Source of the DNA: Seonamhaeicola sp. ML3
GTDB taxonomy: Bacteria; Bacteroidota; Bacteroidia; Flavobacteriales; Flavobacteriaceae
Length of the DNA: 64,000 nt
NCBI RefSeq assembly: GCF_023273855.1
Contig: NZ_CP096884.1
Span: 1,860,001 to 1,924,000 of the forward strand
Direction: 5' to 3'
Part shown: piece after piece, positions 6,692 to 46,860 of the stretch
Layout: each line of letters starts with the position of its first letter
Numbering within the stretch: the stretch's first letter is position 1
Notes under the pieces: model-generated
The model's input: only the letters and a program-made list of their open reading frames with translations
Told to the model about the DNA's origin: nothing
Database searches by the model: none
Position numbers and translations under genes: made by a program

Positions 6692-6721
6692 TTTGATTTT
6701 TTAAAATATTAATTACTTTAG
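6692..6721 (+). promoter_or_regulatory. Promoter of the Phe/Tyr operon leader
   Basis: TTTG at 6692-6695 (-33 element) and TACTTTAG at 6714-6721 (-7 element TAnnTTTG with one mismatch) are separated by 18 bases, within the spacing known for Bacteroidota. A start near 6726-6728 would place the leader-peptide ATG at 6732 only a few bases into the transcript. Confidence 0.45.
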
Positions 6722-6731
6722 CCGCGTAATT

Positions 6732-6791
6732 ATGAGAACAACAGTAATTTATACATATTTTAGCAGCTTTTATTACTTCTTTTTTAGTTAA
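6732..6791 (+). CDS. Phe/Tyr-rich leader peptide of the pheA operon attenuator
   Basis: ATG at 6732 opens a 19-codon frame ended by TAA at 6789-6791. The peptide is MRTTVIYTYFSSFYYFFFS: five Phe (positions 10, 13, 16, 17, 18) and four Tyr (7, 9, 14, 15). Nine of 19 codons are for the two amino acids made by the downstream genes. This is the classical design of an attenuation leader: scarcity of charged Phe- or Tyr-tRNA stalls the ribosome on the control codons. The frame is too short for routine gene callers. The role is inferred from the composition, the position just after a promoter-like site, and the alternative RNA hairpins that overlap it. Confidence 0.85.
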   Translation: MRTTVIYTYFSSFYYFFFS

Positions 6792-6846
6792 AGGAACGAG
6801 GCGTTATATGTATAAATTAAAACAATAAATTTAAATATAAGTCTCG
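6745..6846 (+). promoter_or_regulatory. Ribosome-mediated attenuator: pause hairpin 1:2 and antiterminator 2:3
   Basis: Segment 1 (6745-6758, within the leader frame) is perfectly complementary over 14 bases to segment 2 (6806-6819). Segment 2, extended upstream to 6797-6809, can instead pair with segment 3 (6835-6846) over 12 pairs with one G-T wobble (6801/6842) and one bulged base (6803). The two pairings share 6806-6809 and exclude each other, and 2:3 consumes the 5' arm of the terminator (6841-6846). A ribosome stalled on the Phe/Tyr codons that follow segment 1 would cover it, free segment 2, favour 2:3 and allow read-through into pheA. With charged tRNAs, 1:2 forms and the terminator folds. 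This is base-pairing logic read directly; expression behaviour is inferred. Confidence 0.8.
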
Positions 6847-6868
6847 GTGAAAATCGAGACTTTTTTTT
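6841..6868 (+). terminator. Attenuator terminator in front of pheA
   Basis: GTCTCG (6841-6846), an 8-base loop, CGAGAC (6855-6860) and eight T (6861-6868). Two further A-T pairs extend the stem with 6839-6840. The T-run ends exactly where the pheA ATG begins at 6869, so there is no room for a separate ribosome site between terminator and gene. Confidence 0.85.
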
Positions 6869-7696
6869 ATGATTAAATCGGTAGCCATACAAGGAATAAA
6901 AGGATCTTTCCATCACATTGTTTCAGAGCAATTTTTTAATAAGTCTATTGACTTAATAGAGTGCTTGACTTTTGATGGCGTGGTTGATGCTTTGACTACA
7001 GAATCTTGCGATGCAGCAATAATGGCATTAGAGAATTCTATTGCAGGTTCTATTATTCCAAATTACGCTTTAATCGATAAACACAATTTGCATGTTGTAG
7101 GAGAGCACTATTTAGATATTCAGCATAACTTAATGGCTTTGTCTGGTCAGCGTATTGAGGATATTAAAGAAGTATATTCACATCCTATGGCGTTGTTGCA
7201 ATGTAAAGCGTTTTTTAAAAACTATCCACATATAAAGTTGGTGGAGGATAAAGATACCGCTGAAGTTGCAGAGAGAATTCATAAGAATCAACTTAAAAGT
7301 GTGGGCGCTATAGCTAGTGTTTTAGCCGCTGAGATTTTCGAACTGGACATTCTTGCTAAAAGTATTCAAACAATAAAGCACAATGAAACACGCTTTGCAA
7401 TTGTAAAGCGAACCAATTCTGAAGTTCCTGAAAGTGAGATAAACAAAGCTTCGCTTAAGTTCGAAGCCAATCATAAACGCGGAAGTTTAGCTACCATACT
7501 AAACGTAATGAGCGATTGTAAATTGAATCTAACAAAAATTCAATCGTTGCCAATTATTGAAACACCTTGGAAATATGCATTTTTTGTTGACGTTACTTTT
7601 AATGATTACAGCGATTTTAAAAAAGCAAAGTCTCTAATAGAGATTATGGCAGAAGGATTTAAGGTTTTAGGTGAATACAAAAATGCTAAGTTATGA
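6869..7696 (+). CDS. pheA: Prephenate dehydratase
   Basis: The enzyme converts prephenate to phenylpyruvate in phenylalanine synthesis. MIKSVAIQGIKGSFHH is the usual N-terminus, the PDT signature NETRFAIV lies near residue 170, and a C-terminal ACT domain (about 192-270) suggests feedback inhibition by Phe. The 275-residue length is normal for a monofunctional enzyme without a fused chorismate mutase; the mutase is instead fused to the DAHP synthase three genes downstream. It is the first gene after the Phe/Tyr attenuator, and its ATG directly follows the terminator T-run. It overlaps the aminotransferase gene by 4 bases (ATGA). Confidence 0.95.
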   Translation: MIKSVAIQGIKGSFHHIVSEQFFNKSIDLIECLTFDGVVDALTTESCDAAIMALENSIAGSIIPNYALIDKHNLHVVGEHYLDIQHNLMALSGQRIEDIKEVYSHPMALLQCKAFFKNYPHIKLVEDKDTAEVAERIHKNQLKSVGAIASVLAAEIFELDILAKSIQTIKHNETRFAIVKRTNSEVPESEINKASLKFEANHKRGSLATILNVMSDCKLNLTKIQSLPIIETPWKYAFFVDVTFNDYSDFKKAKSLIEIMAEGFKVLGEYKNAKL

Positions 7697-8838
7697 TTGA
7701 GGTAGCTAAAAGATTGCATAGTGTACAGGAGTACTATTTCTCAAGAAAATTGAGAGAGGTAGGCGCTATGATTGCCGAGGGGAAACCAGTTATCAATTTA
7801 GGTATTGGTAGCCCAGATATGCAGCCACCTCAAAAGGTTATAGATGCTATCTCTGGAAGTCTACAAGATGCCACTGCTCATAAATATCAGAGTTATCAGG
7901 GCTTGCCAGAGTTGCGTGATGCCATAGCATCGTTTTATAAAGAGCACTTTGCCGTAAATGTAAATCCAACTTCCGAAATACTACCCTTAATGGGAAGTAA
8001 GGAAGGTATCATGCATATTTCGATGGCTTACCTAAATCCTGGTGATGAGGTGTTGATTCCTAATCCGGGTTACCCAACCTACCAATCGGTAACAAGGTTG
8101 GTAGAAGCTAAGCCTGTATTTTACAATTTAGATGCCAGCAATAACTGGTTGCCAGATATAGATGCTTTACAAAAGTTAGACCTAAGTAAAGTAAAGCTAA
8201 TGTGGGTAAATTATCCGCATATGCCAACGGGGGCTCAGCCTTCAGAAATAGCTTTTAGAAGTTTAGTGGCTTTTGCTAAGCGAAACAATATTTTAATAGT
8301 TAATGATAACCCTTATAGTTTTGTGCTTAACGATAATCCAACAAGTATTTTAAATGTTGAAGGCGCAAAAGAGGTTTGTTTGGAACTCAATTCGTTGAGT
8401 AAAACCTTTAATATGGCTGGTTGGCGCGTAGGTATGGTTCTGGGAAAAGAAGAGCATATCAAGAATGTGCTAAAGGTGAAGAGTAATATGGATTCTGGTA
8501 TGTTTTATGGAATTCAAAAAGGAGCTATTGAAGCTTTGAAATGCTCAAAGATGTGGTATGTCACTTTAAACAGTGTTTATAAAAGGCGAAGAGATTTGAT
8601 TTGGAAGTTGGCTGAAGCTCTTGGTTGTACATACGATGAAAATGCTACGGGAATGTTTGTATGGGCCAAGTTGCCAGCAGGTATAAAATCTGAAGCGTTT
8701 ATTGATAAGATATTACAAGAAAATCATGTTTTTATTACACCAGGAACCATATTTGGAAGTCAAGGTGAAGGTTATATAAGATTTTCGTTATGTGCTTCGG
8801 CAGATGATATTGAAGCCTGTATAGCAAGAGTAAAATAA
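7693..8838 (+). CDS. Class I/II PLP-dependent aminotransferase, probable aromatic aminotransferase
   Basis: This 381-residue fold-type I aminotransferase has the substrate region LGIGSPDMQPP, the NPGYPTY motif, and the PLP lysine in NSLSKTFNMAGWRVG (Lys about 239). Its position between pheA and tyrA, with a 4-base overlap with pheA, makes it the likely enzyme that converts phenylpyruvate and 4-hydroxyphenylpyruvate to Phe and Tyr. The family also includes aspartate and LL-diaminopimelate aminotransferases, so substrate is inferred from context. Confidence 0.85.
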   Translation: MIEVAKRLHSVQEYYFSRKLREVGAMIAEGKPVINLGIGSPDMQPPQKVIDAISGSLQDATAHKYQSYQGLPELRDAIASFYKEHFAVNVNPTSEILPLMGSKEGIMHISMAYLNPGDEVLIPNPGYPTYQSVTRLVEAKPVFYNLDASNNWLPDIDALQKLDLSKVKLMWVNYPHMPTGAQPSEIAFRSLVAFAKRNNILIVNDNPYSFVLNDNPTSILNVEGAKEVCLELNSLSKTFNMAGWRVGMVLGKEEHIKNVLKVKSNMDSGMFYGIQKGAIEALKCSKMWYVTLNSVYKRRRDLIWKLAEALGCTYDENATGMFVWAKLPAGIKSEAFIDKILQENHVFITPGTIFGSQGEGYIRFSLCASADDIEACIARVK

Positions 8839-8930: not shown

Positions 8931-8937
8931 GATGGGA

Positions 8938-9789
8938 ATGAAGAATATATACTTTATAGGTATTGGTTTAATAGGTGGTAGTCTTGCTAAAGATATCAAG
9001 AAGCTGAATTCAGATTTAGTAATTCATGGTATTAGTAGAAAGGATGTTACACTAGAGGAAGCATTGTCTTTAGGCTTAATTGATAAAAAGGCCACTTTAG
9101 ATGATATTCAGCATGCCGATATGGTTATTGTATCCATTCCGGTTGATGCTACGGTTAAGCTATTGCCAACAATATTAGATAAGGTTTCAGATACTGGATT
9201 GGTAATAGATGCGGGCTCTACCAAAGAGGCCATATGCAAGGTTGTAGAAAACCACCCTAAGCGTAGAAACTTTTTGGCTGCACACCCTATTGCGGGAACT
9301 GAACATTCAGGACCAAGTGCCGCTATTAGTGGATTGTTCGATGGAAAAACAAACATTATCTGTGAAGTAGAAAAAACAGCTTTTAAGTTACAAGAAAAAG
9401 CGCTCGATATGTTTAAGGCTATAGGTATGCGAATTCGTTATATGAACCCTGCGGCCCACGACAAGCATATTGCTTATGTTTCGCATTTGTCACATATCAG
9501 TTCGTTTATGTTGGGAAAAACGGTAATAGAAAAAGAGAAGAACGAACGCGATATTTTTGATATGGCCGGTAGTGGATTTGCATCTACAGTTAGATTGGCT
9601 AAAAGTTCTCCAGAAATGTGGACACCCATTTTCAAGCAGAACAAAGAAAACGTGTTAGAAACTCTTGAAGAGTACATCAATAACTTGAGTCACTTTAAAA
9701 CGTTGATGGAGAATGATGACCTTGAGGCGATATTCAACGAAATGAAAAATGTGAATCACATAAAAGATATTTTAAACGGAATTAAATAA
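8938..9789 (+). CDS. tyrA: Prephenate dehydrogenase
   Basis: The protein has an N-terminal Rossmann motif (IGIGLIGGS, residues 6-14) and the prephenate dehydrogenase motif HPIAGTEHSG near residue 118, with a helical C-terminal dimer domain. It oxidatively decarboxylates prephenate to 4-hydroxyphenylpyruvate for tyrosine. Two in-frame ATGs exist; 8938 (MKNIYFIG) is preferred over 8932 because homologues begin at this point and 8932 abuts the palindromic repeat. No ACT domain is evident, so Tyr control may rest on the operon attenuator or on the downstream synthase. It lies 99 bases after the aminotransferase on the same strand. Confidence 0.93.
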   Translation: MKNIYFIGIGLIGGSLAKDIKKLNSDLVIHGISRKDVTLEEALSLGLIDKKATLDDIQHADMVIVSIPVDATVKLLPTILDKVSDTGLVIDAGSTKEAICKVVENHPKRRNFLAAHPIAGTEHSGPSAAISGLFDGKTNIICEVEKTAFKLQEKALDMFKAIGMRIRYMNPAAHDKHIAYVSHLSHISSFMLGKTVIEKEKNERDIFDMAGSGFASTVRLAKSSPEMWTPIFKQNKENVLETLEEYINNLSHFKTLMENDDLEAIFNEMKNVNHIKDILNGIK

Positions 9790-9853: not shown

Positions 9854-10936
9854 ATGGAAAATAAAAAAGAATTGAGAAGTTGGTTAGATGATTTAAAATT
9901 AGATCATCCGTTAGTGATTGCCGGACCATGTAGCGCCGAGACCGAAGAGCAAGTATTAAAAATTGCTCATGAGTTAAAGGACACCGATGTTACTTATTTT
10001 AGAGCCGGTATCTGGAAACCAAGAACAAGACCAGGGAATTTTGAAGGCGTTGGTGCTTTAGGATTAAAATGGTTACAGAAAGTTAAAGAAGAAACCGGAA
10101 TGAAGGTGTGTACCGAGGTTGCCAATGCTGCTCATGTAAAACTAGCTTTAGAGCATGATATTGATATGCTTTGGATTGGGGCGCGTTCTACAGTATCTCC
10201 ATTTATCATGCAGGAAATAGCCGATGCTTTAGAGGGAACAGACAAACCTGTATTAATCAAAAATCCAGTGAATCCAGATTTGGCACTTTGGTTAGGTGGT
10301 ATTGAAAGAATTTATAGTTCTGGAGTTAAAAATATTGGAGCTATTCACAGAGGGTTTTCTACTTACGAAAAAACAAAGTACAGAAACAATCCTAACTGGC
10401 AAATGGCAATCGAATTCCAAAATAAATTCCCAGATATTCCATTAATCAACGACCCATCCCATATTACAGGAAAAAGGGATATGGTTTTTGACGTGTCTCA
10501 AGTTGCATTAGACTTAAATTTTGATGGATTGATGATTGAAACACATTACGATCCAGACAATGCTTGGAGTGATGCATCACAGCAAGTTACGCCTTCTACA
10601 TTAGTGCAAATCATGAAGGATTTAAAAGTAAGAAAAGAAGCTGATCCAGAAGCTGAGTACAATAGCCAATTAAATAATTTGAGAGCACAAATTGATGTGA
10701 TTGATAATCAAATTATTGATATGTTAGGGAAGCGTATGCAGGCTTCAGATGGTATTGGTAAACTTAAAAAGGATAAGAATGTAGCTGTATTACAAAGTAA
10801 ACGATGGAACGAAATTCTTGGAAGAATGGTGCTAGAAGGACAAGAGCACGGTTTAAGCGAAGAATTTATTCTTAAAATGTTTAAAGCAGTTCATCAAGAA
10901 TCCATAAATCACCAAGAGAAGATTATCAATGGATAA
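9854..10936 (+). CDS. Bifunctional 3-deoxy-7-phosphoheptulonate synthase / chorismate mutase
   Basis: Residues 1-260 are a type I-beta DAHP synthase (VIAGPCSAET, FRAGIWKPRTRPG, ACTEVANAAH-type CTEVANAAH, NDPSHITGKRD). Residues about 270-360 are an AroQ chorismate mutase (LRAQIDVIDNQIIDMLGKR). One protein therefore catalyses both entry to the shikimate pathway and the chorismate-to-prephenate step. In related fused enzymes the mutase domain is the feedback sensor. As last gene of the attenuated operon, it links Phe/Tyr supply to entry flux. A strong hairpin terminator follows directly. Confidence 0.95.
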   Translation: MENKKELRSWLDDLKLDHPLVIAGPCSAETEEQVLKIAHELKDTDVTYFRAGIWKPRTRPGNFEGVGALGLKWLQKVKEETGMKVCTEVANAAHVKLALEHDIDMLWIGARSTVSPFIMQEIADALEGTDKPVLIKNPVNPDLALWLGGIERIYSSGVKNIGAIHRGFSTYEKTKYRNNPNWQMAIEFQNKFPDIPLINDPSHITGKRDMVFDVSQVALDLNFDGLMIETHYDPDNAWSDASQQVTPSTLVQIMKDLKVRKEADPEAEYNSQLNNLRAQIDVIDNQIIDMLGKRMQASDGIGKLKKDKNVAVLQSKRWNEILGRMVLEGQEHGLSEEFILKMFKAVHQESINHQEKIING

Positions 10937-44820: not shown

Positions 44821-46860
44821 TTATTTCAACAACCCAGCACGTTTTAACAAAGCCTCAGGTTTTGGCCCCTGACCTCTGAAGCGCTTGTACAAAGTCATTG
44901 GGTTTTCGGTACCACCAACAGATAAAATGTTGTCTTTAAACTTAGTTGCTACAGTTTTGTTGAAAATGCCTTTTTCTTTAAAAAATTCAAACGCATCGGC
45001 ATCTAGCACTTCTGCCCATTTGTAACTATAGTACCCAGAGGAATAACCGCCCTGAAAAATATGTGCAAAAGCGGTACTCATACAGTTTTCAGAAACATCA
45101 GGATAGAGTGTGGTTGAGGCAAATGCTTTAGATTCATGCGTTTTCACACTATCAATAGTCTCTAGTGATTCACCAGCATGCCAGCTCATATCCAATAAAC
45201 CAAAACTTAATTGACGAAGCGTTTGCATGCCTTCATGAAATGTAGATGACTTTTTTATTTTTTCTACTAAGTCCATCGGAATGACTTCTCCCGTCTCATA
45301 ATGTGTTGCAAAAAGCTCTAAGGCTTCTTTCTCATAACACCAATTTTCCATTATCTGACTTGGCAACTCCACAAAATCCCAAAACACACTAGTTCCTGAC
45401 AAACTAGGGTAGGTGGTGTTGGCCAACATGCCATGTAGTGCATGTCCAAACTCATGGAAAAGTGTAGTGACCTCATTAAATGTTAATAATGATGGTTTTG
45501 TTTTTGTAGGCTTTGTAAAGTTGCAGACTACAGAAATATGAGGTCTGCTATTTTCTCCGTTTTTAACGTATTGAGGTTTGTAAACGGTCATCCATGCACC
45601 GTTGCGTTTTCCTGGTCTTGGAAAATAGTCTGCATATAGGATAGATACAAAATTTCCTTTAGAATCGGTTACTTTATAAGTTAACACATCTTGGTGGTAT
45701 TTATCGATAGTGTTAATTTCTTCAAACTGTAAATCGAATAATTTCTCGGCTATTTTGAAAGAGCCATCAATTACGTTTTCAAGTTTGAAATATGGTTTTA
45801 ATTTTTCATCATCTAAACTAAATAACTTCTGTTTTAGCTTTTCAGAATAATAAGCACCATCCCATTTTTGTAGTTGGCTAATACCGTCTAAATCTTTTGC
45901 GAAGTTTTGCAGATTCGTAAATTCTCTCTCAGCTGCAGGTTTGGCTTTCTCTAAAAGTTCGTTTAAGAAACTCTCAACTTTAGCGGGAGTTTCTGCCATG
46001 CGTTCCTCTAACACAAAGTGCGCATGTGTCTTGTAACCTAGTAGGTTGGCGCGCTCATGCCTTAGTTTTACTATGTCTAGAACGATATCTTGATTGTCTA
46101 ATTCGTCATTTTTAAAACCTTTGCTTCCAAATGCTAAAGACATTTTCTGTCTCAGTTCTCGGTTATCGGCGTAAGTTACAAAAGGTATATAACTTGGGTA
46201 GTCTAGAGTAAATAACCACCCCTCTTTATCTTTTGCCTCAGCTAGTTGTTTAGCAGCTTCTTTAGTGCCTTCAGGTAATCCGGCTAAATCATTTTCATTG
46301 GTTACGAGCATTTCAAACTTATTGGTTTCGGCCAAAATATTTTCTCCGAATTTAAGTTTCAGCTTACTTAGTTTTTTATCAATTTCCCTAAGTTGTTCTT
46401 TTTTGCTGGCTTCTAGATTTGCGCCATTTCTTGAGAAGCTTTTGTATTTTTTTTCTAATAGAGTCAGCTGCTCTGTATTAAGCTGTAAAGCATCTCTTTT
46501 GTCAAAAACAGATTTTACTCTTTTAAATAAATCTTCGTTTAGTGTGATATCGTTACTAAATTCAGATAATAAAGGAGATACTTCTTGTGCAGTTTTTTGA
46601 ATGGTATCGTTGGTCTCGGCGGAATTTAAATTAAAGAATATGCTCGATAACCTATCTAAATGTTCACCAGAGAAATCAAGAGCCTCAATGGTATTTTCAA
46701 AAGTTGGAGTCTCTACGTTATTTATGATCTGGTCAATCTCTAATTTTGCTTTAGTAATGGCATCTTTAAAAGCAGGAAGGAAATAGCTGTCTTTTATTTT
46801 TGAAAAAGGAGCAGTTGTATATGGTGTATCGAAGGTTTTGAGTAATATTTTGTACGACAT
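44821..46860 (-). CDS. M3 family oligopeptidase (dipeptidyl carboxypeptidase / oligopeptidase A type)
   Basis: A 679-residue zinc peptidase with H469-E-F-G-H473 in TLFHEFGHALHGM and a downstream Glu in SQIMENW (about 503-509) as third ligand. The C-terminal substrate region (GGYSSGYYSYKWAEVLDADAF) is typical of Dcp/PrlC-like enzymes. No signal peptide is seen, so it probably degrades peptides in the cytoplasm. It begins 147 bases downstream of purE on the same strand, with a possible small RNA on the other strand in between. Confidence 0.92.
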   Translation of the reverse strand: MSYKILLKTFDTPYTTAPFSKIKDSYFLPAFKDAITKAKLEIDQIINNVETPTFENTIEALDFSGEHLDRLSSIFFNLNSAETNDTIQKTAQEVSPLLSEFSNDITLNEDLFKRVKSVFDKRDALQLNTEQLTLLEKKYKSFSRNGANLEASKKEQLREIDKKLSKLKLKFGENILAETNKFEMLVTNENDLAGLPEGTKEAAKQLAEAKDKEGWLFTLDYPSYIPFVTYADNRELRQKMSLAFGSKGFKNDELDNQDIVLDIVKLRHERANLLGYKTHAHFVLEERMAETPAKVESFLNELLEKAKPAAEREFTNLQNFAKDLDGISQLQKWDGAYYSEKLKQKLFSLDDEKLKPYFKLENVIDGSFKIAEKLFDLQFEEINTIDKYHQDVLTYKVTDSKGNFVSILYADYFPRPGKRNGAWMTVYKPQYVKNGENSRPHISVVCNFTKPTKTKPSLLTFNEVTTLFHEFGHALHGMLANTTYPSLSGTSVFWDFVELPSQIMENWCYEKEALELFATHYETGEVIPMDLVEKIKKSSTFHEGMQTLRQLSFGLLDMSWHAGESLETIDSVKTHESKAFASTTLYPDVSENCMSTAFAHIFQGGYSSGYYSYKWAEVLDADAFEFFKEKGIFNKTVATKFKDNILSVGGTENPMTLYKRFRGQGPKPEALLKRAGLLK

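Follow-up and report, generated by a model that had tools for sequence, protein, structure and literature searches.

The 137 bases immediately 5' of pheA in Seonamhaeicola sp. ML3 (6732-6868 of the window, the whole 64-kb stretch of DNA analyzed in the present study) very probably act as a ribosome-mediated transcription attenuator of the classical type. Our comparisons show that this putative attenuator is widely conserved in Flavobacteriaceae and is also present in several other families of Bacteroidia. The region had originally been predicted to be a ribosome-controlled Phe/Tyr attenuator, and its anatomy, conservation, covariation, spacing, and operon content all support that reading. As judged from these sequence features, the leader would be translated and would respond to tRNA charging.

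All of the parts lie on the + strand. The leader (6732-6791) encodes the peptide MRTTVIYTYFSSFYYFFFS, in which 9 of the 19 codons specify Phe or Tyr. Its stop codon occupies 6789-6791, and its start codon is preceded by A at -3. Arm 1 (6745-6758) is located inside the leader and is the exact reverse complement of 6806-6819 within arm 2 (6797-6819), giving a perfect 1:2 stem of 14 bp. The clamp CGAGGC (6797-6802) at the beginning of arm 2 pairs with arm 3 (6828-6846), the antiterminator partner. The resulting 2:3 antiterminator comprises 12 pairs (6797-6809/6835-6846) with one bulge (6803) and one G-U, and 6 further pairs extend it on the inside (6813-6818/6828-6833). Bases 6841-6846 of arm 3 (GTCTCG) double as the 5' arm of the predicted intrinsic terminator (6839-6868), which consists of the stem 6839-6848/6853-6862 and the T8 tract 6861-6868, adjoining the pheA ATG at 6869. 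The leader, both stems, the terminator ahead of pheA, and the claim that the stems are mutually exclusive, with 2:3 consuming the terminator arm, had been part of the original prediction, and each was confirmed at these positions.

Folding of the RNA, which had been proposed as a check, gave a z-score of -4.43, and none of the 200 shuffles were equally stable. A perfect inverted repeat of at least 14 bases arose in 2 of 2,000 dinucleotide shuffles, and an ATG-initiated ORF equally rich in Phe/Tyr codons also arose in 2 of 2,000. Given its conservation, this attenuator-like arrangement of sequence elements is beyond chance. When the window was screened for an aromatic ORF with a terminator, 5 of 794 overlapping chunks were positive, and these corresponded to two places, the pheA leader and position 46838 (+ strand). 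The latter has a TTG start and is probably a chance match.

The gene that follows the terminator is pheA (6869-7696), which encodes prephenate dehydratase (PF00800, 188.5 bits). It is the first of four genes, all on the + strand with gaps of less than 100 bases. The others encode a class I/II aminotransferase (7693-8838; PF00155, 209.8 bits), the prephenate dehydrogenase TyrA (8932-9789; NF006307, 379 bits, above the cut-off; PF02153), and a bifunctional DAHP synthase/chorismate mutase (9854-10936; PF00793 and PF01817). We infer that the four genes form one operon. This operon would produce Phe and Tyr, the two amino acids that the leader would sense.

We initially compared near relatives. A search with one genome per species was restricted to the best 80 of 570 loci, and a genus search covered 7 Seonamhaeicola genomes, including the present one. 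A script detected a leader and terminator in 85 of 87 near sequences, window included, and the leader was nonetheless visible in the two that it missed (L030 and L088). Removal of identical sequences left 79. Their leaders contain 8-11 Phe/Tyr/Trp codons, with Trp occurring in 39 of the 79. Read in the leader frame, the share of aromatic codons was 0.448, compared with 0.131 and 0.203 for the remaining frames. Since the near set was picked by its open ORF and terminator pattern, the open frame and the presence of the terminator are not independent evidence. The proportion of cells paired was 89.2% for 1:2, 89.3% for 2:3, and 100% for the terminator, for which the sequences had been selected. 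The sequences of arm 2 and the terminator are strongly conserved. Two-sided changes were found at three pairs of 1:2 and three of 2:3; the terminator and the outer helix of 2:3 showed none, their variation being confined to one side. When arms were swapped between sequences, the own partner was better than a foreign partner for 1:2 and for 2:3 (0/2,000 permutations each). The 1:3 control showed no own-partner advantage (422/2,000), nor did the nearly invariant 3:4, for which the swap is uninformative (1,963/2,000). Five near sequences (L014, L021, L027, L029, and L037) carry a second hairpin, CCTCAATGAAGATTGAGG or similar, between the terminator and pheA; in these and in other relatives, pheA apparently starts at TTG.

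Because the near alignment contained few double changes, we sampled distant genera. pheA was present in 130 of 149 genomes of the family and 39 of 149 genomes of the class, the own genome included. Upstream regions numbered 120, from 100 of the 129 other family genomes and 20 of the 35 genomes outside Flavobacteriaceae. A region was called positive when it contained a terminator and an ORF in which 5 or more codons in 8 were aromatic. This was the case for 110 of the 120 regions, namely, 97 of 100 in Flavobacteriaceae and 13 of 20 in other Bacteroidia families; the screen did not find a leader and terminator upstream of pheA in the other 3 and 7, respectively. Seven of the 110 were weaker positives, with an equally good ORF in 1-2 of 40 shuffles. 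In one region (L206), the ORF lies approximately 250 bases before the terminator. Two regions, L143 (genome G078) and L145 (G042), have leaders nearly the same as those of the near relatives of the window, even though PheA identity is only 66-67%. The PheA of G078 groups with genomes bearing a different leader type. An exchange of the leader or the gene is possible in these cases.

Arm 3 was definable in 103 of 111 rows, window included. An upstream complement to arm 3 matched at 6/6 positions in 69 of the 103 (7% by chance), at 5/6 in 33, and at 4/6 in one. Our first swap of 2:3 in the distant set was biased because arm 2 had been chosen as the best complement of its own arm 3. The test was redone with an unselected arm 2, and also with a register blind to the tested position. 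With the unselected arm 2, the energy of 2:3 across 103 genomes was -13.14 kcal/mol for own versus -10.13 kcal/mol for foreign partners; the corresponding values for 1:2 were -16.36 and -11.96 kcal/mol, and neither difference was reached in 2,000 permutations (0/2,000 each). The 1:3 control showed a slight own-partner excess in this set (27/2,000). Core position 4 was examined in a register set without it, and 84 of the 103 rows passed the filter for pairing elsewhere, while 19 failed. The pairs at this position (arm 3:arm 2; n=84) were T:A in 39, C:G in 43, T:G in one, and C:T in one. Arms 2 and 3 vary in concert. Paired compensatory changes in Flavobacteriaceae had been named as a check on the attenuator, and they were found at core position 4, where only two of the 84 rows are exceptions, one of them a T-G wobble. 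Its author had also accepted that a lack of conservation of the leader frame or of both alternative stems would count against it; the frame and both stems were conserved in near and distant pheA regions. On a tree of 61 PheA proteins, 50 rows were scored and 11 were excluded, one for a mismatched arm 2 and the others because arm 2 could not be clearly defined. There were approximately five changes in arm 3 and four to five in arm 2. Only two independent switch pairs fall on branches with good support; both agree in almost every pairing but are too few for significance.

A primary promoter was predicted at 6692-6721 (+ strand), with TTTG at 6692-6695 and the -7 box TACTTTAG at 6714-6721. This box has one mismatch to TAnnTTTG, and similar boxes recur 5' of the leader in near relatives. 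According to the portion of PMC6847099 available to us, the spacing between the -7 box and the transcript start in Flavobacterium johnsoniae is 4-5 nt, and A at -3 is a favorable base. With this spacing applied to the -7 box, the predicted transcript start is 6726-6727, 5-6 nt before the leader ATG. A start downstream of 6745 was the other finding that would have spoken against the attenuator; the predicted box and start are both upstream of that position. The leader had also been claimed to begin very near the transcript start. This claim applies to the window, as predicted, and to 56 of the 79 near sequences, in which the distance from the box to the ATG implies a 5' UTR of approximately 5-7 nt. 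However, it is not general: the median 5' UTR implied in the distant set was approximately 13 nt (box found in 97 of 111 rows), and we rejected a near-leaderless start as a family-wide rule.

We propose the following mechanism. Transcription would begin approximately 5-6 nt ahead of the leader ATG. When Phe-tRNA and Tyr-tRNA are plentiful, the ribosome would reach the stop codon (6789-6791) with its leading edge over the clamp (6797-6802), and after its release, the 14-bp 1:2 stem would sequester arm 2. Arm 3 would then form the terminator, and transcription would end immediately ahead of pheA. Under a shortage of Phe or Tyr, the ribosome would stall on the Phe/Tyr codons and occupy arm 1, leaving arm 2 free. 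The 2:3 stem would form, depriving the terminator of its 5' arm, and transcription would continue into the pheA-aminotransferase-tyrA-DAHP synthase operon.

The position of arm 2 relative to the codons is consistent with this mechanism. Spacing was counted between the first nucleotide of the final aromatic codon and the point where arm 2 begins. The last Phe codon of the window is F18 (first base 6783), and arm 2 begins 14 nt later. The same 14 nt separated the two in 77 of the 79 near sequences, and the spacing was 13-14 nt in 72 of 102 distant sequences. The distance from the start codon to arm 2 varied more. In 88 of the 102 distant sequences, the stop codon lay at least 6 nt beyond the start of arm 2. 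A scan at fixed offsets, in which arm 2 was not selected, for at least 5/6 pairs with arm 3 was positive at offset 13 in 31 of 103 rows and at offset 14 in 44, and at each of 12 other offsets in no more than 6. When arm 2 was taken at 13-14 nt throughout, 74 of 103 rows paired at 5/6 or better with their own arm 3, but a mean of 63.7 and a maximum of 70 in 2,000 permutations did so with foreign arms. The high level of pairing with foreign partners presumably reflects the tolerance of common changes by G-U pairs. The ribosome spans about 12 nt downstream of the A site, and the spacing of 13-14 nt is about its reach. The spacing could also be kept by common descent.

We also folded the RNA with a ribosome mask, for which a footprint of -14 to +12 was assumed. 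In the window, placing the A site at any of codons 3 to 16 gave 2:3 a probability of 0.82-1.0; the value was 0.11 at F17 and 0.01 at F18, with 1:2 favored at the latter two. Therefore, the last two Phe codons may be non-regulatory in the window. The probability was 0 at the stop codon and without a ribosome. Among the 79 near sequences, a ribosome stalled on the final four aromatic codons gave 2:3 above 0.5 in 76, and one at the stop codon did so in 0. Unlike in the window, 2:3 was favored at equilibrium without a ribosome in 53 of the 79. This result does not fit the simplest expectation for the long-leader relatives, namely, that the operon is off without translation; however, it describes equilibrium only, and 1:2 is made first in the cell.

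Leaders differ in length. In 70 of the 79 near sequences, the leader runs past the stop codon of the window, typically ending in FFFSKRNEALYV, so that arm 2 is encoded by its final codons. The early stop was found in the other nine: the window, L003-L006 of the same genus, the Aestuariivivens sequences L020, L038, and L042, and Psychroserpens L082. The two remaining Seonamhaeicola genomes of the seven (L007 and L008) carry the longer leader. For the five early-stop Seonamhaeicola sequences, the energy of 1:2 was -17.2 to -20.4 kcal/mol and the probability of 2:3 without a ribosome was 0 to 0.03, whereas the latter was 0.15 to 0.81 in the other four. Early-stop and late-stop leaders differed in 2:3 without a ribosome (0.25 versus 0.66, p 0.0018) and in 1:2 energy (p 0.033), with relatedness ignored in both comparisons. 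An early stop as a general correlate of a stronger 1:2 was rejected; it holds in the five Seonamhaeicola sequences and not clearly in the other four. A joint account would be that the pheA attenuator is old in Bacteroidia, that the ribosome sets a ruler of 13-14 nt, that the end of the leader encodes arm 2 in most genera, that the leader is translated without a Shine-Dalgarno site, and that the early stop and stronger 1:2 of Seonamhaeicola shift the off state from a ribosome sitting on arm 2 to 1:2 formed after release. We regard this account, taken as a whole, as evenly poised between right and wrong.

Other explanations for the hairpins need to be weighed. The hairpin may be a plain terminator that only stops a short RNA or shields pheA, with the small ORF a by-product of A+T-rich sequence; the A+T content is very high here, and Phe/Tyr codons are T-rich. 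However, the leader, alternative stems, and spacing are retained in 110 of 120 distant pheA regions. Moreover, the gldA-like gene upstream of the leader is divergent; therefore, there is no incoming transcript in need of termination, and we consider a plain terminator very improbable. It is just as improbable that another sensor, such as an uncharged-tRNA T-box, a small-molecule riboswitch, or an RNA-binding protein, acts on the same hairpins. The strong conservation of arm 2 and the terminator in near relatives may be expected of such a sensor, but the feature that is kept is the aromatic-codon frame, and arm 2 varies with arm 3. Furthermore, no Rfam family was found at the gathering score in the whole window, and all scores in a permissive search near the locus were below the cut-off.

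Because the terminator abuts the pheA ATG in the window, it may also impede the initiation of pheA translation, and a hairpin placed directly before the ATG may suggest a switch acting mainly on that step. We consider such a switch unlikely since the U tract of the hairpin is complete and since, among the distant sequences, the end of the hairpin precedes the PheA match by 0 to 338 nt, and often by tens of bases. It is scarcely credible that the nascent leader peptide senses free Phe or Tyr through a TnaC-like arrest. TnaC-like control induces at a high amino acid level, the opposite of what a biosynthetic operon requires. Near relatives share a similar C-terminal tail, SKRNEALYV; however, this tail encodes arm 2, is absent from the leader of the window and from four more sequences of the genus, and differs by arm 3 type (GTGLL and AGRTL tails). 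Ribosome-mediated transcription attenuation remains the reading that we prefer.

The E. coli leaders trpL, pheL, and hisL are ribosome-mediated attenuators of amino acid operons. The pheA leader resembles them in having a leader ORF with regulatory codons, here Phe/Tyr codons for the product of the operon; mutually exclusive 1:2, 2:3, and 3:4 stems, with 2:3 barring the terminator as indicated by pairing and covariation; and, on the basis of sequence and folding, an intrinsic terminator ahead of the structural genes of the matching pathway. In contrast to the E. coli type, it has a Bacteroidota-type promoter with a predicted 5' UTR of 5-6 nt, has no Shine-Dalgarno site, as is usual in Bacteroidota, and encodes arm 2 in the last leader codons of 70 of 79 near sequences. 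A comparative study was reportedly made by Lopatovskaya and others in 2010. The type of switch is already known and has been mentioned in part before; the comparative evidence, the spacing rule, and the variation in leader length are what the present analysis adds. We make no claim of novelty for the pheA attenuator across the class.

Few attenuators had been thought to be described in Bacteroidota. The present example is less of a first than this implied. Bacteroid-trp (Rfam RF01692) is listed as a leader RNA of Bacteroidota in the excerpt of PMC2864571 at hand. The parts of a 2021 transcriptome study of Flavobacterium psychrophilum that we consulted (PMC9723704) describe strong indications that operons for amino acids are attenuated through leader peptides, and they name a 5' element of pheA that lacks an Rfam hit and recurs in further genera of Flavobacteriaceae. 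That element and the pheA leader share the gene, the family, and the lack of an Rfam hit, and we infer that they are the same element. However, section 19 of PMC9723704 gives no structure, leader sequence, or covariation for it. In addition, sORFs reminiscent of leader peptides were noted in Bacteroides thetaiotaomicron in the available text of PMC7366714. In the accessible parts of the open-access literature examined, no structure, covariation, or spacing rule for a pheA leader was found. Bacteroid-trp is also a Bacteroidota leader, but has Trp codons and precedes a trp gene; RF01692 had no match in the 64-kb window and none near the pheA leader at E up to 10. Phe_leader (RF01859) is likewise a leader of a phe operon, yet scored 21 bits at the locus against a gathering score of 55, below the level for membership.

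If the pheA leader has been read correctly, the coupling of leader translation to termination is a standing control of aromatic amino acid synthesis in Bacteroidota, where Shine-Dalgarno sites are mostly lacking. The leader would be suitable as a reporter of translation near the 5' end and of the reach of the ribosome in Bacteroidota. Moreover, because attenuation requires a ribosome close behind the polymerase, transcription-translation coupling would become testable in these bacteria.

Similar leaders were found elsewhere in the same genome. Three Trp codons occur in a trp leader, MKNNLNNTWWWCSRN, that is followed by a terminator directly before trpE (L210:1323-1446); this leader matches Bacteroid-trp RF01692 with 64.3 bits (cut-off 49). 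A his leader, MTFIQLHHHFHICSQAK, with a terminator precedes hisG (L209, reverse complement, approximately 1191-1303). On the reverse complement of L275, six consecutive Thr codons were read by eye in a small ORF, ending in FIGTTTTTTLWGC, approximately 180 bases before the start of one homoserine dehydrogenase gene. It is a possible thr leader, as suggested by its codons, and the screen detected no terminator at this ORF. The trp and his leaders and the Thr-rich ORF together indicate that amino-acid-coded leaders are common to several operons of this genome. The screen showed no leader and terminator before ilvD. A match to the SAM-II riboswitch (RF01726; 48.5 bits, cut-off 44) is located near ilvD on the other strand (L212:643-745, minus).
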